In this document: positions 2,180 to 4,133 of the stretch, in pieces
Numbering within the stretch: position 1 is the first letter of the stretch
How the letters are laid out: every line of letters begins with the position of its first letter
Assembly: GCF_029846255.1 (NCBI RefSeq)
Contig: NZ_JARVWQ010000002.1
Coordinates: forward strand, 744,001 to 808,000
DNA length: 64,000 bases
Source: Amnibacterium sp. CER49
GTDB taxonomy: Bacteria > Actinomycetota > Actinomycetes > Actinomycetales > Microbacteriaceae
Direction: 5' to 3'
The notes under the pieces: model-generated
The model's database searches: none
The model's input: the letters and a program-made list of their open reading frames with translations, nothing else
What the model was told of the DNA's origin: nothing
Translations under genes and position numbers: made by a program

Positions 2180-2572
2180 CTACGCGGCGGAGGTCGCCGC
2201 GGGCGCCGACGTGTCGGCGGGCAGCGCGGCCTTCGCGGACTCGACGAGGCCCGCGAACACGGCGGGCTCGTTCACCGCGAGCTCGGCGAGGATGCGGCGG
2301 TCCACCTCGATGCCGGCGAGCCCGAGGCCCTGGATGAACCGGTTGTAGGTGAGGCCGTTCGCGCGGGCGCCGGCGTTGATGCGCTGGATCCACAGGCGAC
2401 GGAAGTCGCCCTTGCGGGCGCGACGGTCGCGGTAGGCGTAGACGAGGGAGTGGGTGACCTGCTCCTTCGCCTTGCGGTACAGGCGGGACCGCTGACCGCG
2501 GTACCCCTCGGCGCGCTCGAGGACGACCCGACGCTTCTTGTGCGCGTTGACGGCGCGCTTGACCCTGGCCAT
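2180..2572 (-). CDS. rplT: 50S ribosomal protein L20
   Basis: L20 is an early-assembly 23S rRNA-binding protein. The protein begins [15 protein letters not shown] and contains [20 protein letters not shown] and [11 protein letters not shown], all diagnostic. At 130 aa it is about ten residues longer than usual because of a Pro/Ala/Thr-rich tail ([12 protein letters not shown]), common in high-GC actinobacteria. Third gene of the infC-rpmI-rplT operon, 35 nt after rpmI. In other bacteria L20 autoregulates this operon through the infC or rpmI leader; whether it does so here is unknown. Confidence 0.97.
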
Positions 2573-2607: not shown

Positions 2608-2802
2608 CTACTTGCCGAGCAGCTTCTTGATGTTCTTGGCGTCGGCGTTCGACAGCGTGGCCTCCTGGTTGAGGCGACGGGTGCGCACGCTCGACTTGCT
2701 CTCGAGGTTGTGCCGCATGCCGGCCTGCTGCTTCATGACCTTGCCGCTGCCGGTGATCTTGAAGCGCTTCTTGGCACCGGAATGGGTCTTCTGCTTCGGC
2801 AT
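2608..2802 (-). CDS. rpmI: 50S ribosomal protein L35
   Basis: 64-aa basic protein starting [14 protein letters not shown] and containing [11 protein letters not shown] and KKLLGK, the standard L35 signatures. The ATG at 2802-2800 shares one base with the infC stop (TAATG), giving translational coupling to IF-3. Component of the large ribosomal subunit. Confidence 0.97.
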
Positions 2803-3422
2803 TACTGCTCCTTCGGCGCAGCCTCGGCTGCGGGTGCGTCCCCGGCATCGGCGGATGCGGGGGTGGTACGGGCCGCGGCGCGGCGGGCGTTCTGCTCCGC
2901 CTTCGCGTCGACCTTGCTCTTCAGGGGACCGATCACCATCACCATGTTCCGGCCGTCGATCGTGGGGTTCGACTCGACGGTGCCGAACTCGTGGATGTCC
3001 TCGGCGAACCGGCGCAGCAGGCGGACGCCCTGGTCCGGGCGCGACTGCTCGCGACCGCGGAAGAGGATCATCGCCTTCACCTTGTCGCCGGCCTTGAGGA
3101 AGCCCTCGGCACGCTTGCGCTTGGTCTCGTAGTCGTGGTCGTCGATCTTCAGGCGGAACCGGATCTCCTTGAGGATCGTGTTCGCCTGGTTGCGCCGCGC
3201 CTCCTTGGCCTTCTGCGCCGTCTCGTACTTGAACTTCCCGTAGTCCATGATCTTGACCACCGGCGGGCGCGAGTTCGGCGCGACCTCGACGAGGTCGAGA
3301 TCGGCCTCCTGGGCGAGCCGCTGGGCCACCTCGATGGGGACGACACCGACCTGCTCTCCGGCGGGTCCGACGAGTCGGACCTCCGGGACGCGGATCTTGT
3401 CGTTGGTACGGGGATCGCTGAT
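2802..3422 (-). CDS. infC: Translation initiation factor IF-3, apparent AUC start codon
   Basis: IF-3 binds the 30S subunit, checks start-codon/initiator-tRNA pairing and blocks 50S joining. The N-domain opens [19 protein letters not shown], the linker carries MDYGKFKYE, and the C-domain contains [15 protein letters not shown] and [15 protein letters not shown]. No ATG, GTG or TTG precedes the conserved start in a sensible place. An AAGGAG at 3434-3429 sits 6 nt before an ATC codon (3422-3420) that begins the conserved sequence, so initiation at AUC is inferred, giving 206 aa. A rare AUU start on E. coli infC underlies IF-3 autoregulation, and the same logic would fit here. There is an Ala-rich C-terminal extension after residue 175. 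Confidence 0.93.
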
Positions 3423-3728
3423 GCGTTGCTCCTTGTTCGGTGGATGCTGGTGGCACGGCTCTCCCGTGCGCTCCCGGGGATCAACCGACGAGCAGGCAGG
3501 ACGATTCCTTCGTGCCGGCCGCACGCGCGCACCGGCACCGCACCCGACGCTCCCGAGACCGGGAGGGAGTGCGCTCGACCCGTGCACCCTCGAGAGTCGG
3601 GTGCGCAGGTGGGATCGCTCCACTTGACCGCCGGGCCGAGCCCGGAACCGCAGCAGCGTACCAGAGGCGGCAGGACGGGCACGACGGATACGCCCGAGCC
3701 TGTCCCGCGGGAACGGGAGAATGGTGCC
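3423..3728. promoter_or_regulatory. infC upstream region with a long structured leader
   Basis: This 306-nt gene-free interval separates infC (minus) from the DUF1844 gene (plus). On the minus strand a TACGCT at 3660-3655 is a plausible -10, implying a leader of roughly 220 nt. The leader holds several short inverted repeats, for example GTGCCGG/CCGGCAC about 13 nt apart near 3512-3540 and GTGCACCC/GGGTGCGC near 3583-3607. Ribosomal-operon leaders are often autoregulated; no known leader family is recognised. Confidence 0.45.
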
Positions 3729-4133
3729 GTGGCAGCGATCGACGTCCCCGGTCCCGACGAGATCCCCGGCGAGGCCGAGGCGGCGGACTCCCCCGACGTC
3801 CTCGACGACATCGCCGAGGCGACGCGGGACATCGCCGAGGTGCCGGCGGTCGAGATCATCAGCACCGCGGCCGTGCATCTCATGAGCGCGGCTGCGGTGA
3901 AGTGCGGCCTCGCCGACGACCCCGAGCACCAGACCGACCTCGACGAGGCCCGCAAGCTCATCACCGCGCTCGCCGGCCTGCTCACCGCGGCCGCCCCCGA
4001 GATCAGCGACTCGCACGCGCGGCCGCTCCGCGACGGGCTGCGGTCGCTGCAGCTCGCCTTCCGCGAGGCGTCCGTGATCCCGGATCCGATCGGCCAGGGT
4101 CCCGGCGAGCGCTGGACCGGCCCCGTCACCTGA
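3729..4133 (+). CDS. DUF1844 family protein
   Basis: 134-aa acidic, helical protein with no signal peptide or membrane segment. The core after the acidic N-terminus ([31 protein letters not shown], given here in part as [13 protein letters not shown] and [14 protein letters not shown]) matches the conserved DUF1844 pattern. The GTG at 3729 was chosen because the conserved region begins soon after it and no other in-frame start lies nearby. Function is unknown. It is divergent from infC, a neighbourhood I recall for this family in actinobacteria. Confidence 0.85.

Follow-up and report, generated by a model that had tools for sequence, protein, structure and literature searches.

A predicted AUC start codon of infC in Amnibacterium sp. 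CER49 and the variety of infC start codons in Actinomycetota

The infC locus and its start site

The window analysed here is a stretch of 64,000 nucleotides from Amnibacterium sp. CER49 (contig NZ_JARVWQ010000002.1, positions 744,001 to 808,000), which carries on its minus strand the gene order infC-rpmI-rplT (Table 1). The product of infC is initiation factor IF-3 (IF3), being the one match in the whole genome to IF3_N (PF05198, E 2.3e-31) and likewise to IF3_C (PF00707, E 3.4e-32). The infC stop codon is TAA (2804-2802, minus strand), and its overlap with the next gene suggests that infC and rpmI are translationally coupled.

Table 1. Features of the infC region, in positions of the window
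Feature	Position	Strand	Remarks
infC (IF-3)	2802..3422	-	206 codons + stop; PF00707 and PF05198 domains
ATC start codon of infC (predicted)	3420..3422	-	window sequence and comparison with relatives
Shine-Dalgarno (SD) AAGGAG of infC	3429..3434	-	6-nt spacer to ATC; window sequence
rpmI (ribosomal protein L35)	2608..2802	-	ATG overlaps infC stop (TAATG)
rplT (ribosomal protein L20)	2180..2572	-	ATG start
Conserved leader motif AAGTGGAGCGATCCCACC	3608..3625	-	begins 203 nt upstream of ATC

On the minus strand the beginning of infC reads AAGGAG CAACGC ATC AGC GAT CCC CGT ACC AAC GAC AAG ATC CGC, so that, as far as sequence alone can tell, a codon other than ATG, GTG or TTG (together NTG below) stands behind the SD with no canonical alternative nearby. 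The initial annotation had described this SD and spacer and had seen no NTG in a sensible place, and both descriptions hold. The nearest upstream in-frame GTGs lie 102, 165 and 201 nt from the ATC (3524, 3587 and 3623), and a scan of the window sequence gave none of the three an SD at a fitting distance. Some of the in-frame GTGs 456-729 nt upstream, well outside the leader, have a four-base SD-like match by eye. Downstream, the first in-frame NTG is a GTG at codon 32 of infC. Upstream of the ATC the frame has no stop for 744 nt, but at such G+C this proves little.

The leader upstream of infC

The leader of infC contains a conserved motif of the form AAGNGGA(G)...TCCCACC, found 111-270 nt upstream of infC among leaders L002-L081 and L348-L371; in many loci a further block (ACCGGGT or similar) comes after it. 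The motif occurs at 113 of 362 infC loci (not deduplicated) against none of 362 downstream coding controls. By set, it is present in 76 of the 80 search relatives and all 25 genomes of the genus, family and order sample described below. Families f1-f8 have it in 10 of 14 rows, the other families in 3 of 211. These counts are descriptive and no test, because the search expression was framed on a motif already noticed in the genus of the window. It was not found in the Streptomyces locus L080. Across the window no match to Rfam attains the gathering score of its family, two matches in the leader being far below theirs, and a promoter and terminator scan of 3380-3800 returned none. Folding of the window's leader is unremarkable (z -1.28), and RNAalifold on 18 leaders gave nine pairs, in none of which both partners change. 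We regard the motif as a candidate leader RNA of the infC-rpmI-rplT operon. A binding site for L20 within it would be a guess; the accessible text of PMC7247131 does not mention infC and gives no L20 leader for Actinobacteria.

Start codons of infC in relatives and across the phylum

Relatives were collected with six search peptides, one of them near the IF3 N-terminus with the start codon not part of it, and the best 80 of at least 592 were kept, all of which could be read at the start codon. The codon at the start site is ATC in 57 and ATT in 23, with NTG in none, and in every one of the 80 it is preceded, at a spacer of 4-11 nt, by a match of four or more bases to the SD. A second sample of 25 genomes from the genus, family and order of Amnibacterium sp. 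CER49, its own genome counted, has ATC (20) or ATT (5) behind an SD throughout; in one of these loci, L370, we read ATT, and an ATC stands immediately before it. Within the genus, all seven genomes (own included) have ATC, and their leaders carry insertions and deletions upstream while the stretch from SD to ATC, GGAGCARCGCATC, is invariant. The comparison thus bears out the ATC as the place where infC starts, and the conservation of ATC or ATT that had been proposed as a check on the initial annotation is indeed found. Its view of AUC as an independent variation is not supported, as ATC or ATT is shared by every member of both samples and an ATC start of Streptomyces infC was published in 2017 (PMC5472188). 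ATG at the same position, named there as evidence against the start, is absent from near relatives and present in distant lineages of the phylum. A record titled Stenotrophomonas maltophilia P13 (L007) has a Microbacterium-like infC as its sole IF3 match in 2.7 Mb, and the title looks wrong.

Because ATH codons also encode isoleucine, their conservation alone might reflect the protein sequence, and infC could then begin at one of the upstream GTGs (3524, 3587 or 3623) with the ATC as an internal codon. The open frame with its GTGs leaves room for such a start, as do 50 of the 80 search relatives, in which an in-frame NTG occurs somewhere upstream or no stop lies within reach, but we consider it highly improbable and reject it on the missing SD of the three nearest GTGs, the indels upstream of the constant SD-ATC stretch in the same genus, and the in-frame stops in relatives, which lie at most 10 codons upstream of the ATH codon in 22 of the 80 and leave a single codon between in four (L006, L018, L056 and L063). 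In 30 of the 80 the stretch from the upstream stop to the ATH codon is free of in-frame NTG. The same stops and indels disfavor protein sequence as the explanation of the conserved ATH.

For a wider view of the phylum, the PF05198 profile was searched against an evenly drawn sample of Actinomycetota genomes (240 of 246 matched) and against further samples: the class of genome G106 (24 of 27), family f12 (29 of 35), family f18 (38 of 39), another class (28 of 31) and genomes chosen from the first sample (30 of 30). The evenly drawn sample enters the count with 192 genomes, chosen among the matches listed, the weakest matches not being among them. The resulting table of 308 infC rows joins the 80 search relatives to 228 survey rows from 227 genomes in 64 families. 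Duplicate genomes, the genome of L007, E. coli and, for too little upstream sequence, G201 and G276 were left out, and loci new in the 25-genome sample are not part of it. The survey is partly curated by eye (38 rows set by eye, then seven settings changed or added), and where two NTH codons fitted, ATH was preferred by rule (20 rows). One genome, G260, contributes two rows; its two infC matches lie on different contigs and differ in their starts (TTC in L229, ATC in L244), perhaps through a second copy or contamination.

Among the 228 survey rows, 204 have a non-NTG start (65 ATC, 61 ATA, 31 GTA, 20 GTC, 19 ATT, 4 TTT, 2 TTC and 2 CTG), 15 an NTG start (8 GTG, 4 ATG and 3 TTG) and 9 are undecided; the evenly drawn sample by itself gives 171, 15 and 6 of 192 rows. 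An SD scan of the 308 infC genes made before the settings by eye found NTG at a spacer of 4-11 nt in 4 and NTH without NTG in 276, leaving 18 with neither and 10 without an SD, and several of these last two groups are NTG starts with a short spacer or no SD. The same scan of 204 rplT genes as a control gave 160 with NTG, 1 with NTH alone, 18 with neither and 25 without an SD. An NTH codon behind an SD can arise by chance, and therefore the absence of NTG is the telling part. The aligned start is NTG in all 204 rplT genes and in 234 of 239 rpmI genes, the other five having an NTG at most two codons away.

Two groups have GTA or GTC at the start site. In family f18 (loci L245-L274), perhaps Rubrobacteraceae, 28 of 29 rows have GTA and one (L266) ATA, the GTA standing in the context GGAGTGGTGYACA-GTA-GCN or close variants. 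The class of G106 (L084, L097, L109 and L193-L213) has 20 GTC, 3 GTA (L198, L204 and L212) and 1 ATG (L205) among 24, with an in-frame TGA stop usually inside the extended SD. None of the 20 GTC rows contains an ATG, GTG or TTG from the in-frame stop (in most rows the TGA of GGAGGTGATG) to the conserved domain. This is likewise true of 27 of 31 GTA rows, both TTC rows, both CTG rows and one of the four TTT rows, and an in-frame NTG lies at least 15 codons upstream in 4 of the 31 GTA rows. The out-of-frame ATG inside GGAGGTGATG, taken with a frameshift, was considered as a start for the GTC class and set aside: it follows the SD core after only 2 nt, it is absent from L206, and GGAGGTGATG itself fits an extended SD.

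Smaller groups depart further. In genus g74, TTT or TTC occupies the site that is ATT in related genera, and in family f12 such a start is possible in L218, L226, L229, L232, L236 and L237. UUU is the weakest of the start claims because an in-frame ATG lies 18-19 codons upstream in three of the four TTT rows. Family f36 has CTG in L285 and L286, read by eye. CTG and TTT/TTC are each seen in few rows, with weaker support than GTA and GTC.

Canonical starts behind an SD are found in families f31, f39 and f47, and genome G203 also has a canonical start; in f34, f42 and f59, read by eye, the N-terminus is longer and there is no SD. Individual loci that seemingly start with ATG, GTG or TTG are L336, L339, L340, L342, L344, L345 and L347, together with L090, L101, L131, L305, L151, L189 and L328, which lack an SD and have an extended N-terminus. 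L327 has TTG or GTA and is counted as undecided, so it may be another NTG row. At L175 (genome G175) an SD at least about 60 nt ahead of the IF3 domain is followed by the out-of-frame TTG GTG AAC GCC CTT TGA, which may encode a short leader peptide preceding infC.

The changes of start codon were counted on a FastTree phylogeny of the IF3 proteins with 240 labelled rows, the first residues omitted and one in four of the search relatives used. The tree is rough, as the protein is short and branch supports were not considered, and on it we count at least 41 changes of start codon, against a mean of 139.0 in 50 shuffles. Changes within ATA, ATC and ATT number 25 (shuffle mean 69.7), first-base changes among non-NTG rows 7 (54.3), and changes between NTG and non-NTG 3 (14.7).

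IF3 and the choice of start codon

Non-canonical starts of infC are known from several bacteria. PMC5472188 (2017) gives ATT for E. coli and ATC for Streptomyces in its accessible text, where the non-canonical start is taken to mean that IF3 autoregulates its own translation, and notes that infC is misannotated in most Streptomyces species. The start in Streptomyces is the same codon at the same place as in the window, with no difference of start site seen, and ATC also stands at the infC site of Streptomyces ipomoeae (L080) in our set; a start of this kind is thus already known, and an AUC start of infC in Actinomycetota is in print. E. coli infC, which we likewise read as ATT at its annotated start, resembles the window in that the IF3 N-terminus is encoded from a non-AUG codon preceded by an SD, and in the infC-rpmI-rplT order, and differs in having AUU for AUC. 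Outside the phylum, infC starts are also non-AUG with a different third base in S. aureus (AUA, with ribosome density at the start; PMC13009471, in part), Xanthomonas (ATT by peptides; PMC5559785, in part) and Listeria (ATT, cited as confirmed in the part of PMC13068326 available); the evidence is ribosome profiling in S. aureus and peptides in Xanthomonas, and for the window it is the nucleotide sequence only. The accessible part of PMC9094748 does not name infC. We found no report of GTC or GTA starts of infC among the titles listed, which is weak evidence of absence, as subscription papers were mostly outside the search. As a precedent for AUC in another gene, Myxococcus dsg is said to start with this codon.

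The link between an AUC start and IF3 autoregulation is the standard reading of the E. coli AUU and Streptomyces ATC starts, and by analogy we extend it to the window. Translation of infC would begin at the AUC, read by the initiator tRNA, so that the protein would begin with methionine, and a good SD would offset the poor codon. The AUC would be disfavored by IF3 itself: with IF3 plentiful, initiation there would be rejected more often, and with IF3 scarce it would be accepted more often. IF3 could thereby hold its own level, a feedback suggested by the work in other bacteria. We give this explanation as a whole a probability of roughly 0.8, the start being predicted from sequence and the loop drawn by analogy.

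One possible alternative is that the AUC serves simply as a weak start by which IF3 is kept scarce, with no feedback from IF3. Reporters of other S. aureus genes with non-canonical starts would agree with it: according to the available part of PMC13009471, they yield about 10% of AUG output in one medium, and one of them reaches up to 30% in rich medium. However, the non-NTG class persists through the codon changes counted on the tree, and GTG or TTG behind a weaker SD could equally give a low level. In addition, IF3 represses S. coelicolor sigR at its GTC start (accessible text of PMC5472188); this is a different gene with an IF3-sensitive non-NTG start, and a precedent for the GTC starts in the survey. 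We consider a weak start without feedback unlikely, and prefer autoregulation by IF3.

Comparison of the sequences shows a conserved start position whose codon changes often across the phylum but rarely to ATG, GTG or TTG. A codon that drifts while avoiding G in the third position, and that seldom becomes NTG, is what would be expected if disfavor by IF3 were selected. We think it rather probable that the infC start in Actinomycetota is selected as any codon that IF3 disfavors, and not as AUU or AUC as such: the second base would stay U, the third would rarely be G, and the rest would drift, to GUA in family f18, GUC or GUA in one class, CUG in one family and perhaps UUU or UUC in one genus and a related genome. 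At about three places in the tree AUG, GUG or UUG is used, and there the loop was perhaps lost or replaced. A disfavored start is not indispensable, because 15 of the 228 survey rows have ATG, GTG or TTG.

For annotation, infC of Amnibacterium sp. CER49 should probably be given the ATC as its start, and neither an upstream GTG nor an internal codon. The case of the window itself is ordinary. In other branches of the phylum infC appears to begin with stranger codons, GUC and GUA among them. The lineages whose infC seems to start with GUC, GUA, CUG or plain AUG, GUG or UUG are natural variants for a direct test of the start-codon rule of IF3 autoregulation.
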